This document shows positions 32,501-43,790 of a DNA stretch of 64,000 nucleotides, one piece after another. Origin of the DNA: Xestospongia muta. Taxonomy: Eukaryota > Porifera > Demospongiae > Haplosclerida > Petrosiidae. The notes under the pieces were generated by a model. The model did no database searches. It was not told the DNA's origin and was given only the letters and a program-made list of their open reading frames with translations. A program made the position numbers and the translations under genes. Numbering within the stretch: position 1 is the stretch's first letter; each line of letters opens with the position of its first letter. Location of the stretch: positions 4,865,827 to 4,929,826 of the forward strand of contig OY848928.1 in NCBI GenBank assembly GCA_963693285.1, in the 5' to 3' direction.

Positions 32501-35067
32501 TCTTCCCTTAGGTTTCACCTCTGTCATACTTTCCACAGTTGAGAAGCGATATAGTTTTACAAGTGCAGCTGCTGGTTTCATAGCTGTATCCTACGATACC
32601 ACCGTGACATTAAGTATCATTTTTATAAGCTATTTTGGAGGCAAAAGTCACAAACCCAGGTGGCTGGGAATCAGCCTAATAATCATGGGAATTGGAGCAT
32701 TCGTTTTTGCTTCACCACAATTTATTTTTGGTCATTATGATGTTGGTTCTTCAAATAACTTTCTGTTTGAGACTTGTCTTGACAAGAGGAACTTCACATC
32801 AGATTGCTCTCCATCTGATGATGCTGCCTACGCTATTTTCGTAATGGGTAACATGTTGATAGCTATCGGAGCTGTTCCTCTTTATACTATAGGTCTAGCT
32901 TACCTCGATGAAATAGTACACCCAAAATATATATCTATACACATTGGTGTATATTATACTATGGCAGTCCTTGGTCCCGCTTTTGGATATATTATTGGTA
33001 GTAGTCTTCTCTCTGTCTATGTGGATCCGTGGGTTGATACTACTCTAACTACATCAGATCCAGCTTGGGTGGGTGCTTGGTGGATATCGTTCGTAATGTC
33101 TGGTATCCTGTGCTTGTTTCTTGCCATTCCGTTCTTAATGTTTCCGAGATATTTATCTGATAGTTACCTCATACGACAAGAGAGAGCCAAAGAGATGGCT
33201 AAGATTTATCCTAGTAAATATGCTAATGAAGACAATCTTACTATTATTGTTAAAATGTTTCCTATACATATTAAGAGGCTGATCTTCAATTCATCTTTTA
33301 TGCTTGCCTCATTTGGTTTAGCTTCAATGTTCCTCCTCGTTTCTGGATTGGTTTCATTTGGACCAAAGTATTTTGAAAATCAATTCCAACTATCAGCTAC
33401 TTTTTCTGGACTTCTCTCAGGCGGAATAGGTATCACGAGTGCAGGTATATAGCTAACTAATATTACTGTACAATAATCTATTAATATAAATACTAACAGT
33501 CGTCTTAAATGCAGCTGGTTGATAGATAGGATACTCCCCCCCTGCTTTCATTTGTTCCCTCCTTTTAATTCTATACAGTTTTTTCAAAATGACTTTTGAA
33601 TTAAACAATGACAGCTTGTTTAAATCAAGTGTTTTGTTTAAAGAGAACATTTTAAAAATCAAATATTACAACCTGAAATCTTATATTTTCTTTTTAGCAT
33701 TTGGAGCTATGACTGGAGCACTGATCCTTTATTTTACTAAGATCAAAGGAAGAAGAGTGATATTACTTATTTTCATAATTGTGGCTGTTCTTGTACCACT
33801 AACTCCAGCATTTCTCATTCATTGTCCGTCAGTAGAAGTTGCTGGTATCACTGCATCATATTCAGATGGGTTAGTTAATGTTATGTTAGTGTGATTGTAT
33901 GGAGTTCCTGTTTCTTTAGTTCTATTGATGATATTGATGAGGCCTCTTGTGCTAATAAATGTGGTTGTTCATCATATGTATTTGAACCAGTCTGTGGAGC
34001 CGATGATCTGACTTACTTCTCTCCTTGTCGAGCTGGATGTTTGAGAACACTAGAAAGTGATGGAGTAAGTTGTGAGCTGAATAACAAATGATGAAAGAGA
34101 GAGAGAGAGTGCTAGAAGATAATAAGTATTTTTATTTATTTTCTATTCCTTTAGACTTATTCTTTCAGTAATTGTACTTGTGTAGCTGAAGGTCTACTCA
34201 ATGGTACTAATACCACTATAGCACAACTTCCATTTAGTGATGTTCTACATCAGTACAGTACAGCTACCGATGGAAAATGTAGTCATAGTTGTAAAGCTTT
34301 GATACCTTTCATTTTAATTATGTTGTTATCTTTGTACTTTGTCTTCATAACACAAATACCTTACAACTACTTTACATTGAGGTAATGGCTTGATGGATGG
34401 ATTGACAGATAGATGAATGGATGGACAGATGAATGGATAAACGAATGACTGATGGATGAATAGGTGGACAGAATCATATGTAGGCAACTAAATGTAGTAA
34501 TTATTGTTCTTTTTAACCAGAGTTGTTGCTGATGACCAGCGTTCTCTTGCATTGGGCTTCCAGTCGGCCATTTGGCGTATCTTTGGTCCCATACCTGGAC
34601 CTATTATATTTGGTGCACTGTTTGATGCATCCTGTGTAAAGTGGCAAGGAGAGTGTGGTCGCCGTGGTAACTGCTGGGTGTATGACAATGGGCAATTGAG
34701 CATCTATGCAGCATCCTTTGGTATACCATGTATGGCTGTTGCAGCTGTTCTTCTTTTCTTTGCGTGGCTGACATATCCCAAACAACAACAACATTTTGAC
34801 ACTAATAAGGAAATAGAAGATGAGACACAAAGAAATGAACCAATTGAAGACAATATCAGGCTTAATGGTGACTCTTCACACAGAGTGAATTCACGATCAT
34901 GGTCTCATGGGAGTCGGCCCTCTACACTAGCAAAATTGTTGACTGAAGATGGACACGTTAAATTATTAAATGATACTTCAGCTGTTAATACTCCATTAGA
35001 TGAATTTGGTAGCTCTACTGAAAACTCACCAGATAGTAATATCCCAATTCTACCATCTTCAATCTAA
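29576..35067 (+). CDS. SLCO/OATP organic-anion transporter, copy 8
   Basis: Exons: 29576-29858, 32512-33444, 33698-33869, 33920-34064, 34155-34381, 34521-35067; 768 aa, the longest copy. The ATG at 29576 (AACATGGCC) has good context; the frame stays open upstream but without conserved content. CGFGPCHPKWLQFF replaces the usual CGCG motif. OATP signature DPAWVGAWW; Kazal-like loop EPVCGADDLTYFSPCRAGC. Intron 1 is 2,653 bp, far larger than in any other copy, and I recognise nothing coding inside it. The C-terminal tail is extended by about 80 Ser/Asp-rich residues (SWSHGSRPSTLAKLL), which might carry phosphorylation or trafficking signals. It is the right-hand end of the array. Confidence 0.92.
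29859..32511 (+). other. 2.65-kb first intron of SLCO copy 8
   Basis: AT-rich, no open frame with conserved content on either strand, and no recognised transposon ends. It is unusual only for its length in a locus where most introns are near 50 bp. It may hold regulatory sequence. Confidence 0.6.
34386..34470. repeat. Degenerate GATG(GA) tetranucleotide repeat
   Basis: Repeats of GATGGATGRAT-type units in the last intron of SLCO copy 8. Similar GGATGGAT tracts occur in intron 3 of two tetraspanins (about 50172-50200 and 53768-53800). Confidence 0.8.
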
Positions 35068-35290: not shown

Positions 35291-38200
35291 TTAAGTTAGT
35301 TTACTACCGAATGTAACCCAATCTATTATTGGTAGAGATTTCAGTGGTAATTTCTTCATATGCATATCAATTAATATTTTCTCCTGTGACCTCAAAGTGT
35401 CTTCCAGGATAGATGATTTGCTAATTCCAATGTATTGAAGTGAGGGATGAATATAGATAGCTTGACAAAACGTTTGGATTTGCTCTAACAAGCTAGGTTG
35501 AAGGAAACTCAAACGGTCACAGGGTTGGTATACAGTGACAGTAACATCGAGGTTAAGAAAAAGTTTAGTAATTGTTCCATGTGAATCTAACATCTTAATA
35601 ATAAGTGTTAATGCCTGCTCACATAGCAATTGATTTATAAAATTTCTGATGCCATCACATACCTCATCTTGAATAAAATATATTGCAAGTTCTGTGAGCT
35701 TACACTTGTGAGAGATAACATTAAAAAAATGTAATGGTTGTTCCCAGTTGGTATCTGACAGTGGAATAGGTACATCCAACTCTTGTAGATTGGTGTTGTG
35801 TGAGAGACCAGTTGTTAGAAAAGGCAAGTAAGTACTGGAACTGGTCGATCTTAAATCATTATAGTCAATCTTAAGATATTGTATCGTTTGGTTTTGTGTT
35901 AACATGTCTTGTAAACTAGGACCCATACCATCATCAGTATCACCTAACATCACTATCAGAGACTTAACTGTAGTATTACTCTGTAGAATATTAAATAGTT
36001 CAATAACACTATCAGCTGTGTCTAGTGATAACTTAAGTCGTTGTAGATTGGGATATGATTGAAATAAAGGAGGTATTGAGTGAGGTTTGCATACAAGACA
36101 ATGCAGATCAAGTCCTTCGATATGTTTAAGAAGCAATATTGTCAATTGTTCAGTCTCCTCTCCCATACTGAGAGCAGTGAGAGGTGAATACACTTTTACT
36201 ATATTATCTAGTGAATCTGACACATATTCTGGCTTTATGAAGAGCTGAAGAGCTTGTAATGTGTGATTGTCTTTCAATAATTGTCCAATTATTTTGTTGA
36301 GAAATGGAGATTTTAGTTTATTATGATGTCCGCTAAGAAACATAAATGAAAATGTTTTAATAGATTTGTTTTTGGTTACTCCTTTCAAAATACTCTCAAC
36401 TACATTAGCAACATCAGTCTCAAGAGATTGTGGTGGGTCCAAGAGAAATGAACATACAATAGTTATTGTTAGATCCTGTAGTATAGTATTGACACTTAAA
36501 TGTTCCTCTACTTGACACACAATTTTTTCGTCCATCTTTATGTATGGCTCTTCGCATAGTACAGTTATATTAGCATTAATGTAGAATACCTTTAAATGTT
36601 GTAGTTCTATTACAACCAATAGTAAAAGAGTGAAATCAGATGGATGTAGTTTTACATCATGAAAAGTGCCCATTCCAATATGACACTCTTGAAGGCAGTG
36701 AAAAGATCTCATTAATGACCTTAGGTCTATATAGTTATAATCATAATTGGACTTGCATACAATATGAATCTCTAGTCTTTTACATTGGATGTTATTTTTG
36801 AGTTCATTAGTAAGAAATTGGATTAATTTTGGCTCATTCATCAGTAGTATTCCCAGATCCAAAGAATTCCATGTTGTGTTTGAGTGTTTGAGGAAATAGC
36901 TAAGGCATAACACATCAAACAGTGACGACAATGATACTGCATCAAAACACAATGAGCGGTTCTTCATTGTTTGTGATAATGATTGACACAGCTTTGTATT
37001 TTGTGACTCGTATAACAAATGAAGGAGAAGAATATCCAATTTATCAGTGATAAAATCAGGAGACAAATGTGAGTATAAAAAAGTAGCATTTCGTTTAAAG
37101 TGAGAGTTAAAACATTTCTCAGATGCAAACAATGGTCTCCTTTTACATTGTAGGTCATGTTCTTTGTTAAAATATTGCTGATAGCTCTGATGTTCTAGGT
37201 GAGTTAGACCTGCCACAAACATCAGACACATTCTAAAGTGATCATTATCAAAATTTTCTGCAAACATTTCCTCTGTCTTCTGACTCTTCTCATACTTAGC
37301 TATCCACCATGCTGCTAGAAATTCCTGGATACTCAGGTGAAGAAATTGATACCTCTCTTCAATACCTACAATAAATGTTGTCATTAGTCCAAGATAGCCT
37401 TCCTTCTCTGACTGAACAAGAGAGTGACGGAGTTGAAATGAGGAAAATGTTAGTTTTGGATTGTTTTCTTTCAAACTGAGGTAAGCAAAGTGACAAATCT
37501 CTTTAAATGTTGTATCTAAGACTGATGGTAAATGATGAAGGTTATATAATTGTACAGGTTCTATATTGTCAATTCTCTTAATTTTAACATGTCTTCTGAC
37601 TGTTTGTAGGATAAAATTCTCATATAATTCTGTGAGTGTTGTTGGCAACTGTCCATCTGACTGACGATAAACTAAGATGACTATGGAACAGACTAGTGGT
37701 ATATAACACAATGACTGGACATCACCTCGTACTTCAAGATCTTGGATAAGTTTCTCAGCTAGATGTGGTTCTTTTTCTAGTGTTCCTTTGACTACTTCCT
37801 TGATCTCCTTAACTGAAAATCCTAACACTTCAACATGTCTGTTAACTGAAGGTAATTCTAACAGTGAGTAGGAGGCATAGCTACGAGATGTAACAACTAC
37901 TGAACATTTGGCTAATATCTCTCTACGAATTATTCTAGCTGCTAGTGAGGATTGTCTGAGAGCTGTATTTAATTCATCCCAACCATCAAAAATCAGAAGC
38001 AGTCCTTCCCCATGTATTTCACTTAGCCATTTATTCACACTGGAAACTTCATTACAGTCATAAGTGTACTTGAGAATATCTTGTAATTCAATAGCTTGAG
38101 CTACCTTGTCATTTCTGAGAGGACAATAAAGTACTAAGTCATATTGTCCATGTGTGAGTTCTCCTTTAGCCCACATATTTAACAGTTTACGACAGAGTGT

Positions 38201-39654
38201 TGTCTTACCAATACCAGGAGGACCATCAACTACTACTCTAAGAGACTGACCACTATCACATGGTTTAAGAACATCCTGGATATTTATCTGTTTATCTTTA
38301 GTAACTTGAGGTATTTTGTCAACTTGTCCTCTTAACATACACCATTGTTTCTGTAGTATTGTTTGAGGAGTGGCATGTCTGTCTTTTGTTTGTAGTAGTG
38401 CTAATCTTCCAAAGAAGTCTTGTCCAACTGGTGGTGGCCAGTCTATAGGGACAATAGGTTGGTGTTTGTATCGATCTATCATAATATCACGATATCGCTG
38501 AACATCAGGATCTAATGAACTGGTGGGTGGATTATCAATATCAGTACATTCACCTTAACAAAATAAGATACATAGAAAGGAAAGGTAATACATTAATTGA
38601 CTCACCTAATTGTTGTAATATAAATGTAGTAATATCTCTTAGTCTCTGATGTTGTTGGTTTCTTAATACATGACATATATTCACTAGATACTGGTGTGGA
38701 TCTCTTTGTGCTTGTAACTGTCTCTGTAACATACCTACCAACTTACTAGATTTTACCAAATCACTCTCTCCTTTCGTTGTTAATATGTCAATATAAGTGT
38801 CAAATGGTATAAGTCCTTTAGCATACAGTACATTAGCTATACTGGTGGTGATAGGAGTGATAGCATCAATTAGATCAGCAAAGTGAGTACGTAATATTTC
38901 ACTTGGAGTCATAGGCGTATCTAGGTGGCCAAATGACTAGGGCTAATTAATTATTCATTATTATTAATATTAATTAAATTTAATTAGCTACAATGTTTAG
39001 TAAAATTAATAATTAAAGAAGTGTTATTTTAGAGTTTTTGTGACCTCTAGCAAACTCAATAACCAGCTCATCAAGTGAATCCCACAGTCGCGAAGAAAGC
39101 TCTCGTTCAATAGCGAGTAAATTTATACAACTGCAGGTGCTGAATTATACACGTGTGGTTGGTTCTTAACTCGTTAAGTATATGTAGGTGTGTTGTGGTT
39201 AGCTATAATCATTATTGGTTTTAATTGTAATAACAGTCAAAGCAATGAATTTAATTTTGGAATTTATTTAAGGAAAATGGATTTTGAGAAAGTTACCCGG
39301 GGAAATGCCTGTGCCAGCCCGAGTCTAAATACGCCTATGCTTGAAGTGAGATTGCCTACAGAGTTACATTTTTAGTAGATGATGTTACTATGTGTTTGAG
39401 TGATGTGTGTCTGTCTGTAGATAATGATCACCTGTTTTAGGTCCAGGGTTGAGTTCAATATCACCTGATAAAATGAGGAGAAGTAAAAGAAATAAAACTA
39501 GAGAGAAGGTCAGGTTACCACCACCCTCATCTCCTGACCATAGTGACTCCACCCATCCTGAGATATCAGTAGTAGTTCCCGTTTTAGTAGTATATGATAT
39601 CTGATGACAATACCATAACCCAATACTGGCTCTCCATTGAGTGGTATCTATCAT
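35291..39654 (-). CDS. NLR (NACHT) innate sensor with N-terminal 2A exon
   Basis: NOD-like receptor, probable intracellular immune sensor. Model on the minus strand: exon A 39654-39432, exon B 38920-38606, exon C 38553-35291; 1,266 aa. Exon A encodes a hydrophobic run followed by the 2A motif DIELNPGP (residues 65-72). Exon B is a helical death-fold (CARD/Death-like) domain. Exon C has Walker A GPPGIGKTT (about 290-298), Walker B LLLIFDGWDEL (about 364-374), a helical region and leucine-rich repeats to the end. The junction A-B keeps phase (G|AT). A shorter form from the ATG at 38912 (1,189 aa) is the safe minimum. The A-B link rests on splice sites and phase only. The acceptor lies in a transposon end. 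An upstream ATG at 39708 is also possible. Confidence 0.8.
38910..39339. mobile_element. hAT-like MITE inside NLR exon B
   Basis: 430 bp bounded by inverted CATAGGCGTAT(C/T)TAG ends, of the kind seen in hAT elements. It is flanked by an 8-bp target duplication with one mismatch: CTTGGAGT at 38902-38909 and CTTGAAGT at 39340-39347. No transposase frame is present, so it is non-autonomous. It lies between the 2A exon and the rest of the NLR. Its left end (minus reading CCACCTAG|ATACGCCTATG) provides the acceptor used in the gene model and also forms the ATG at 38912. Confidence 0.78.
39432..39654 (-). CDS. 2A-like ribosome-skipping exon (exon A of NLR)
   Basis: Encodes 74 residues. A strongly hydrophobic segment (about 50-62) runs directly into SGDIELNPGP. 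D-x-E-x-N-P-G-P is the full canonical 2A consensus. In known 2A peptides the Gly-Pro bond is not made and translation resumes at Pro, so separation is expected between G71 and P72. A donor (ACAG|GTGATC) follows three codons later. Upstream, a pyrimidine tract ending TTTCTTTTAG just before the ATG suggests this exon has its own acceptor and a 5' non-coding exon. If that is wrong, the open frame extends to an ATG at 39708 with a further hydrophobic N-terminus. Confidence 0.75.
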
Positions 39655-41340: not shown

Positions 41341-43790
41341 ATGTCAAGTCTTATTTGTCAATTGACTGTCATTTCATTATTTCTCTATCAAGGTATGTGT
41401 ATTCAATTTAATAAATGTCCTCATCTCTCCTCAATCTTATTTTCTACAGCAACATCCACTAGTTGTGTGGATGATCAAGTCAGACTAACTGGTTTGTCAA
41501 CATCCGTAATTGGACGCTTGGAACTTTGCAGAAATGGTTCTTGGACTCGAGTGTGCAACAGTAACAAAGAATGGACACTGAGAAATTCCATGGTGGTTTG
41601 TAAAATGCTTGGCTATGGATATGCTTTGAATGTGGACTCTATACCAAGCAACAGGTGAAAACTAAAATGATATTGTTTAATGAAAATAGTGAACTAGAAT
41701 TTACTATATAGAAAGTTATAGGCACAGCTGCATGAAGTTCAAATGTTTTATTGCAAGCAATTCAAATGTATTTTAATTTGTAGGTCTTTGATAATTACCC
41801 AGGTGAAGTACCTTTCCGTGTACAGTATACATGTATAAGTTCTCCCTGTTCTTGTCGGCATGATATACGACTATTCTAATATTTATTTTGTCAGCAACTC
41901 CTTTGTCACATTATATTCTTCGAATTCCTGCAAATAACTTTCACTATCTGACATATATTATAAGTTCTCCCTATTATTGTCAGCATGATATAAGATTGTT
42001 CTAATAATTATTTGCTAACACTTTGTCAATCTTGCAACTTAATAAAGTTTCACTACTTGTCACAAATAAGTTCCCCCTGTTATTGTCAGCAGATATATTA
42101 GATTACTCTAATATGCGTGTTTCATTATTATGTTCTTCCTGTAACTAAATACTTTCACTATATTCATTCCACAAACTAGACTTGCACAGGATTCAACATG
42201 GATGCCTTTTTCTTATGGTAATGTTAAGTGTCTGGGACTGGAAGGAAACTTAAATGAATGTGAAGTGACCAATGCTACACAAGATTGTACTCAAGATGAT
42301 GAAGTGATCATTTTCTGTACAAGTATGTTAATAATAGATAGTAAATGGCTAAATATTACCAATTGATTTATACAAGTGACTAGTATATATTCCTCTTATT
42401 TATGTAAAAACCATTGATCATATCTAGTGTATCATTGAATATCTTTATTATGGAGAAAATATGTAAGCAAGTTTGAATTTGTACACACTTGTTGACTTCA
42501 TTTGGTCAACAAAGTAATATTTCGTACTCTCTTTAATTGTATGCTGTTTGATAAAAATTAACGCATCTCAATTACTCATGCAACTAACATATATCCTTGA
42601 TAATATATTGATTATGTAATGTACAATGAGAAAGCTAATATAACTATATCCATGTATATAGTGAATTTTGAAATCAACCCAAACAAATTAGTACAAATAC
42701 AAATTTGATTATATGTGTACTTGGCACTCCTTCAATACTAATTTGTAACACTTAAAAGTTACAGATTATTTGACTCTCATTACTTTTGACATAGTCCACA
42801 GAAATGGAATACTGGAAATGGAATACTGGATACTTGTTTGTTAAAAATAGTACTGTACTACATATTATCTTTATAACAAATACATAGTTTATTTATTATA
42901 TCTTTCTCCTCTTGCAGATCCAAAAGACGGAGATGTTCGTTTGGTGGGTCCTGGTGATGATGCTAGTGGTATTGTTGAATTATATAGCATAAGCTATGGA
43001 TGGTCAACTGTATGTATAAATAAATGGAGTGATAAGGAAGCAAGTTTAGTGTGCCAAGAAGTTGGTTATGATAGTGGTGACAGTAGTACATCAAGGTTTG
43101 TGGTTTTGATAACATATAAGAGATGTTATGTGGTTCATTAATATTCATATTTTCATTCAGTTATGGGTCAAGGTCCTTACCAGTTAGACGATATGACTAT
43201 TTCCAGTGTACTGATAATGATCAGAAGCTCTCTCAATGTGCGTACGATGGTCCCTTTCCTAATGGATGTAGAACATCATCGAGAGGAGCTGTTTCATGTA
43301 AAAAAACAAATAAATGTAAGTTGCAGATCTACAGTAGGTATACAGGAATAGGAAATCTGCTGTGCTATAATAGACCTGCTTCATATCTATCTGATAAGCC
43401 TAAATTTAACACTGATAAGTATAATATTATGGAAGTGTAGTAATTACAACACACCACATCCTTTTTGTACTCTATAATTTACTCTACAATTTTATCATGT
43501 CCATGTTAGCACTTCTGTTTCCTGTCTTTAACTCAGGTGCGGTCGAGAATTTGATTATCATCACACTGACAGCTTTACTACTGGGTAATCTTTTACTATT
43601 TGCTATAGCCATTTTGATTGCGATATACGTAAAGTGCAAGCAGAAAAAGAAGCAATCCCTTTCACATCAAACAATTCTTAATGGCCATCCTGATCCCTGG
43701 GAATATGTTCCTACTACAGATTCTCCACCTACTTATAATGAGTCTTGCGGAAATGATGAGTCTGCAGACATTATATCTACCAGTATATAA
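41341..43790 (+). CDS. SRCR-domain single-pass membrane receptor
   Basis: Scavenger-receptor cysteine-rich protein, probably a cell-surface recognition molecule. Exons: 41341-41392, 41450-41654, 42180-42322, 42918-43095, 43161-43315, 43537-43790; 328 aa. Signal peptide about 1-17. Two SRCR domains follow, about 25-132 (VRLTG, GRLELCRNGSWTRVC, VVCKMLGYG) and about 135-238 (VRLVGPGDDASGIVELY, WSTVC, ASLVCQEVGYD). A TM helix lies at about 250-275, then a basic stop-transfer KCKQKKK. The cytoplasmic tail contains PPTY (308-311), a PPxY motif of the kind bound by WW domains such as those of NEDD4-type ligases. Intron 2 has a three-fold degenerate repeat. Ligand unknown. Confidence 0.9.
41836..42170. 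repeat. Three degenerate direct repeats in SRCR intron 2
   Basis: Units beginning AAGTTCTCCCTGTTCTTGTC, AAGTTCTCCCTATTATTGTC and AAGTTCCCCCTGTTATTGTC (about 41836, 41960, 42068), each followed by CAGCATGATAT-, CTAATA- and CTTTCACTA-like blocks. Unit length about 105-125 bp. They fill most of the intron. Confidence 0.8.

Follow-up and report, generated by a model that had tools for sequence, protein, structure and literature searches.

A multi-copy leader exon carrying a 2A-like motif ahead of death-fold immune genes in the genome of Xestospongia muta

Described 2A systems and the sponge leader

N-terminal 2A-like signal sequences are carried by NLRs of the sea urchin Strongylocentrotus purpuratus (SpNLR2A); according to the available sections of the source, the urchin N-terminal 2A was estimated to be about 80% active in vitro, and its inactivation sent a reporter mainly to the Golgi (PMC4981915). 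The same sections place the 2A (StopGo) sequences of picornaviruses and non-LTR retrotransposons internally in polyproteins or transposon frames (PMC4981915). The words “sponge” and “Amphimedon” do not occur in this paper.

The exon described here was found in a window of 64,000 nucleotides from Xestospongia muta (the whole stretch of DNA analyzed). It resembles the picornavirus and non-LTR sequences, as presented in the available part of PMC4981915, in the motif, the Gly–Pro skip site, and the hydrophobic context upstream, but constitutes the first coding exon of host immune genes. With SpNLR2A it shares an N-terminal position on NLR proteins and D(V/I)ExNPGP preceded by a hydrophobic tract. 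The sea urchin 2A signals cited in the initial annotation are published, although the type of leader differs: the urchin leader described in those sections of PMC4981915 has 26 residues, whereas the sponge leader is not short (72 residues in the window copy, 65–76 with a median of 72 in 26 representatives), has a conserved N-terminal motif, forms a separate phase-1 exon, and also stands ahead of DEATH–ankyrin and multi-DEATH genes. The share of NLRs with 2A is given in the same source as approximately 35% in the urchin (85 out of 241); here, a leader or motif lies at most 6 kb upstream of 45 out of 98 NACHT hits.

Transmembrane segments in sponge NLRs are reported in a 2026 paper on Dysidea avara, whose available text credits the first report to work on Amphimedon queenslandica (PMC12909245). 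These proteins resemble ours in that NACHT is combined with a membrane segment identified by prediction; neither “skipping” nor “signal peptide” appears in the paper, and it would be a guess that its membrane segments are identical with the leader described here. Among the titles and abstract openings listed from the open-licence PMC literature, none concerned 2A in the immune genes of sponges, and the available parts of PMC5519566, PMC5009743, and PMC5890393 contain nothing on this subject; an earlier mention is possible. N-terminal 2A sequences on NLRs were already known, and what appears new is a long conserved leader exon common to several death-fold architectures.

The window gene and the transposon at its first junction

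The start codon, hydrophobic run, DIELNPGP motif, Pro72, and donor (ACAG/GTGATC, with 39432 as the last exon base) were all confirmed by direct reading as initially annotated (Table 1). The translation of the minus-strand exon reads MIDTTQWRASIGLWYCHQ...NLTFSLVLFLLLLLILSGDIELNPGPKT; it contains the D[V/I]ExNPGP signature of 2A-like (StopGo) peptides and, upstream of it, the tract of long hydrophobic residues that is the second mark of such peptides. The 2A pattern matches once in the 64-kb window and in none of 100 shuffles, and the motif is real, beyond chance.

Table 1. Features of the window gene (positions within the window).
Feature	Position	Strand	Remarks
Leader exon	39432..39654	−	Coding from ATG 39654; 72-residue leader, K-T, and first base of next codon
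Hydrophobic run, residues 48–62 (LTFSLVLFLLLLLIL)	39469..39513	−	Hydropathy; also compared across 26 representatives
2A motif DIELNPGP, residues 65–72	39439..39462	−	Direct reading and pattern search
Predicted skip site Gly71/Pro72	39442/39441	−	
Predicted splice donor GT, phase 1	39430..39431	−	Paralog comparison
Older acceptor AG (ctctgtag/GCAATCTC)	39356..39357	−	Intron of 76 nt; paralog comparison
Target-site duplication, copy 1 (ACTTCAAG)	39340..39347	−	
430-bp insert, read as non-autonomous DNA transposon	38910..39339	−	15-nt terminal inverted repeats, 93% complementary
Candidate acceptor AG of the initially annotated junction	38921..38922	−	In transposon terminal repeat; in phase
Putative death-fold exon	38606..38920	−	Best structural resemblance to CARDs; first codons D-T-P-M from transposon end
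Target-site duplication, copy 2 (ACTCCAAG)	38902..38909	−	7/8 identical; runs on into CARD-like coding sequence
NACHT exon and C-terminal part, open to stop	35291..38553	−	NACHT at 37775–38239

The NACHT domain expected of an NLR was identified by Pfam (PF05729, E 8e-24). The CARD-like exon has no Pfam or CARD match by sequence; Pfam LRRs were not detected in the gene at E 0.1, repeat-like stretches being visible by eye, and neither NCBIfam on the NACHT frame (nothing over the cut-off) nor Rfam on the 64-kb window (0 matches at the gathering score) gave further assignments. Spliced as in the initial annotation, the leader, putative death-fold, and NACHT exons join in phase into 1266 residues. 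Neighboring plus-strand frames encode an organic anion transporter (OATP, 32604–33452) and a scavenger receptor (SRCR, 41341–41658).

The initially proposed K-T-D-T-P-M junction exists in phase as sequence, but its acceptor turned out to lie within one of the terminal inverted repeats of a transposon that has inserted where the CARD-like exon begins. Intron 1 measures 511 nt in this splice form, versus 48–53 nt in four relatives with the leader joined directly to a CARD-like exon (L059, L060, L007, L003), which across the junction read, by eye, R-T-[DE]-K-P-T-P-N-E or K-T-D-Q-V-[ND]-P-S-E. The older acceptor reads K-T-G-N-L-T-S-S... into the insert and then reaches a stop, giving 104 residues in all; its K-T-G-N-L-T is in the same register as in the relatives. 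Two halves of the queried segment 38910–39328 match other places in the genome at 90–96%, where they lie farther apart, as would be the case for an internally deleted copy of the element. The 8-nt duplication combined with such terminal repeats recalls hAT elements. Since D-T-P-M comes from the element end and the older acceptor leads to a stop, the window gene is either rescued by an exonized transposon end or broken; a full protein would require use of the splice site that the end of the transposon provides, or of another, unrecognized one.

As the junction is transposon-made, the window copy may be broken, and we give slightly less than even odds to its being a dead copy, broken by the transposon, whose junction is in phase by chance; this reading applies to the window copy alone and is compatible with the family-wide reading given below. 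Such a loss would agree with the insertion and its 7/8 target duplication where the CARD-like exon starts, the stop beyond the older acceptor, the weak pyrimidine tract (catttggccacctag) ahead of the new one, and the probability of one in three that phase fits by chance. Against it, the NACHT frame (1063 codons), the CARD-like exon, and the leader are all still open; the element ends match other copies at 90–96%, so that decay may not have had time to act.

The leader family and its coupling to death-fold genes

In the genome searched (158 Mb, 28 contigs), the 2A motif pattern was matched at 150 places and the control pattern, its reverse, at 0; places were listed for 100 of these matches, none of them on C13–C15. 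A search with the leader protein yielded 150 matches scored from 188 candidates (E 1.2e-45 to 1.1e-8), 129 without and 21 with stops inside the leader. From the loci read, 50 distinct leaders were picked by a pattern demanding M..QWR-like residues and NPGP, so that leaders lacking either are absent from this set. Their common layout is MID..QWR..IGLW, a variable linker, approximately 15 hydrophobic residues, SGD[VI]ExNPGP, and a phase-1 donor; a phase-1 GTR lies within 14 nt of NPGP in 50 out of 50, a few leaders seemingly having shifted donors with the phase preserved, and a purine occupies position −3 of the ATG in 48 out of 49. Among the 26 representatives, the 2A segment reads SGD[VI]ELNPGP and residue 48 is the median start of the hydrophobic run. 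Three copies have the leader and the following type-A exon (see below) in a single open frame that runs through the short intron.

On those contigs for which every motif hit was listed, the strict motif is kept in 67 out of 70 stop-free leaders versus two out of eight with stops (Fisher p 8.5e-6), and with the listed part of C12 added, in 78 out of 82 versus two out of 10; these counts, inflated by the presence of the motif in the query itself and by the use of 150 scored leaders of 188 candidates, support upkeep of the motif in apparently coding copies. The dN/dS ratios (325 pairs, 26 representatives) range from 0.08 in the 2A segment through 0.13 in the N-terminal motif and 0.18 in the hydrophobic run to 0.72 in the linker, the values for the N-terminal motif and 2A being lowered by the leader-picking pattern and the contrast between linker and hydrophobic run being far less affected. 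Synonymous positions of SGDxELNPGP (39439–39468 and relatives) are unusually uniform, with CCT for the first Pro in 24 out of 26 and GGA for Gly in 21 out of 26; dS of this segment is 0.47, versus 1.1–1.6 in the rest of the leader.

The exons following leaders were labeled type A, type B, and CARD-like. Four type-A members match Pfam Death with E 7e-5 to 4e-3, one of them over the curated cut-off; for type B, one out of four members matches at E 0.06, the other three and the type-B query-source frame giving no Death match, and these exons are only weakly death-like. An in-phase acceptor with an open path was found for 39 out of 42 leaders having a type-A, type-B, or CARD exon downstream and is absent in three; phase fits at the nearest AG in 38 of the 42 and at the most pyrimidine-rich one in 35, the chance expectation being approximately one third. 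Introns between leader and type A span 47–60 nt, except for three loci at 183–185 nt, and those between leader and type B range from 135 to 1469 nt.

The coupling can be viewed from both sides. Starting from the exons, a leader or listed motif lies within 600 nt upstream of 59 out of 68 type-A exons (at least 62% identity), 56 of these at 45–64 nt; a leader is found at the same distance upstream of 14 out of 27 CARD-like exons (at least 47% identity), ten of them at 390–515 nt and mostly with a type-A exon between, and of 13 out of 150 type-B exons and seven out of 32 weaker type-A matches. In the control, with leaders sought within 600 nt downstream, all four exon sets gave 0, including 0 out of 68 for type A. 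The type-B set comprises 150 scored of 1398 candidates, and 17 further weak and 123 weaker entries of the exon lists were left out. Starting from the leaders, a type-A, type-B, or CARD-like exon occurs within 2.5 kb downstream in 101 out of 150 and upstream in one out of 150; among the matches listed, 49 out of 150 leaders have no death-fold exon within 2.5 kb downstream. The exon next to a leader is thus usually a predicted death fold.

Within 6 kb downstream of the 150 leaders we see NACHT in 43 cases, an ankyrin frame in 32, other DEATH frames in 13, and none of these in 62; the corresponding upstream control gave 14, 12, and three, as expected in tandem arrays. These counts used 35 of 133 ankyrin matches and 17 of 111 plus 15 of 150 DEATH matches, chosen for nearness to leaders. 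For the 98 NACHT hits, the 45 upstream leaders or motifs cited above are on the same strand, compared with three on the opposite strand and 13 downstream. For example, one locus (L071) combines a leader, a type-A exon, a second death-fold-like frame, and ankyrin repeats, and another (L072) a leader, a type-B exon, and two DEATH frames, the joining in both cases being suggested by order and strand. The downstream genes thus include NLRs, DEATH–ankyrin genes, and multi-DEATH genes, which makes the leader a shared cassette. None of the 16 NACHT hits on C2 and only one of the 10 on C3 has a leader or motif by it, and C13 and C15 have no leader among the matches listed (150 scored of 188); hence, only some NLR clades seem to be marked by the cassette.

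The idea of a 2A leader on NLR genes therefore holds in the paralogs, where phase, short introns, genome position, and motif retention place it at the N-terminus of NLR (NACHT) genes, but it is not NLR-specific, and in the window copy this placement depends on the splice site in the transposon. Taken as a whole, the data are best explained by the window exon belonging to a multi-copy set of phase-1 leader cassettes that precede death-fold immune genes and, in intact copies, would skip as described in the next section; to this explanation as a whole we assign a probability of approximately 0.7. The family, its conserved motif, the coupling to death folds, the phase, and the architectures are established at the level of genome sequence.

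The genome also contains an expansion of DEATH domains (PF00531), with 1488 first-look candidates, all 150 scored ones being reported as matches. In the array at C14:5.10–5.22 Mb, a second, stop-containing leader lies 1.96–2.24 kb upstream, on the same strand, of eight out of 10 stop-free leaders.

Predicted skipping and alternative origins of the leader

By analogy with published 2A work, the leader is predicted to skip at Gly–Pro, and its membrane fate and purpose are suggested indirectly. In intact copies, the ribosome would read the N-terminal and hydrophobic segments and reach D[VI]ExNPGP before the latter segment has left the exit tunnel. The Gly–Pro bond would often be skipped, releasing a leader of approximately 71 residues with a C-terminal hydrophobic tail, and a cytosolic receptor would begin with Pro-Lys-Thr; without the skip, the hydrophobic segment would emerge and could act as a signal or anchor, leaving the same receptor membrane-bound or in the secretory path. 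One mRNA would thereby set the ratio of free to membrane-targeted receptor.

Judging from hydropathy, a run starting at about residue 48 is no less compatible with a signal anchor or tail anchor than with a cleavable signal, an anchor being suggested by the long N-terminal segment and the late position of the run. Once released, the leader would be similar to a tail-anchored peptide, since the run is approximately 8–24 residues from the peptidyl center at the time of choice. Flanking charge gives no consistent orientation among the 26 representatives (C side more positive in nine, equal in three, less positive in 14). In our opinion, a membrane-tethered form facing the cytosol makes more sense than secretion for a NACHT/CARD receptor.

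If skipping works, a translational switch between skip and run-through would decide receptor location for several receptor classes at once, N-terminal 2A targeting would exist in a second, distant animal lineage, with common descent or convergence with sea urchins in question, and the reported membrane segments of sponge NLRs would have a possible explanation. A broader proposal, which we hold as tentative and consider less probable than its opposite, is that a single leader-2A exon has been shuffled via phase-1 introns onto about 100 or more death-fold genes with three or more architectures. A single decision in translation would then set the free versus membrane-bound pool for a good part of the intracellular immune repertoire of the animal. 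On this proposal, the released leader of approximately 71 residues would itself be tail-anchored, and its conserved N-terminus (MID..QWR..IGLW), at too great a distance from the skip site for a role in skipping alone, would have a task of its own.

Alternatively, the leader could be translated and joined as proposed, with the hydrophobic segment serving just as a membrane anchor and 2A inactive or weak, so that all product is membrane-bound. Transmembrane segments reported in sponge NLRs (available text of PMC12909245), including one Dysidea NLR transcript (available text of PMC6208332), agree with this. Moreover, according to the available sections of PMC4981915, 2A activity depends on the upstream context besides the motif, and the sponge leader has Leu at position 11 from the C-end, where R11A lowered activity in the urchin. 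However, the motif is the most conserved part of the leader, kept in 67 out of 70 open copies beyond what an anchor needs, and Leu at both positions 13 and 14, important in the urchin according to the same sections (PMC4981915), is present in 22 out of 26 representatives (by eye). We consider an anchor with inactive or weak 2A improbable.

Far less probable still is that the exon is a stray retrotransposon fragment with 2A that happens to lie near an NLR, although a retrotransposon may be the ancient source of the leader. 2A motifs are known in non-LTR elements (available sections of PMC4981915), a further 2A class in the genome is joined to a PHD-finger-like segment, and two out of 150 leaders have a reverse transcriptase upstream on their own strand, at 3.9 and 5.2 kb. 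Against this origin, none of the 150 has a same-strand reverse transcriptase in the 6 kb downstream (150 scored of 966 RT candidates), and the spacing and phase to death-fold exons are tight.

In a search across species, no relative of the leader was found in viral contigs, and the one locus matched in genome contigs (L073) was rejected, since by eye it encodes a bacterial membrane transporter that lacks 2A and whose hydrophobic residues match by chance.

The second DxExNPGP class is represented by L012, L018, L022, L023, and L027 (motif near position 1500), where a short hydrophobic run and 2A are followed directly by the PHD-finger-like segment, matched by Pfam PHD in L018 only; among 150 scored reverse transcriptase matches, none lies within 8 kb downstream of these loci. 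A diverged leader-like sequence, MVDISIWRARIGLF...AGDVEVNPGP, is located approximately 0.3 kb ahead of a TPR-repeat frame at L011 (C1:568584).
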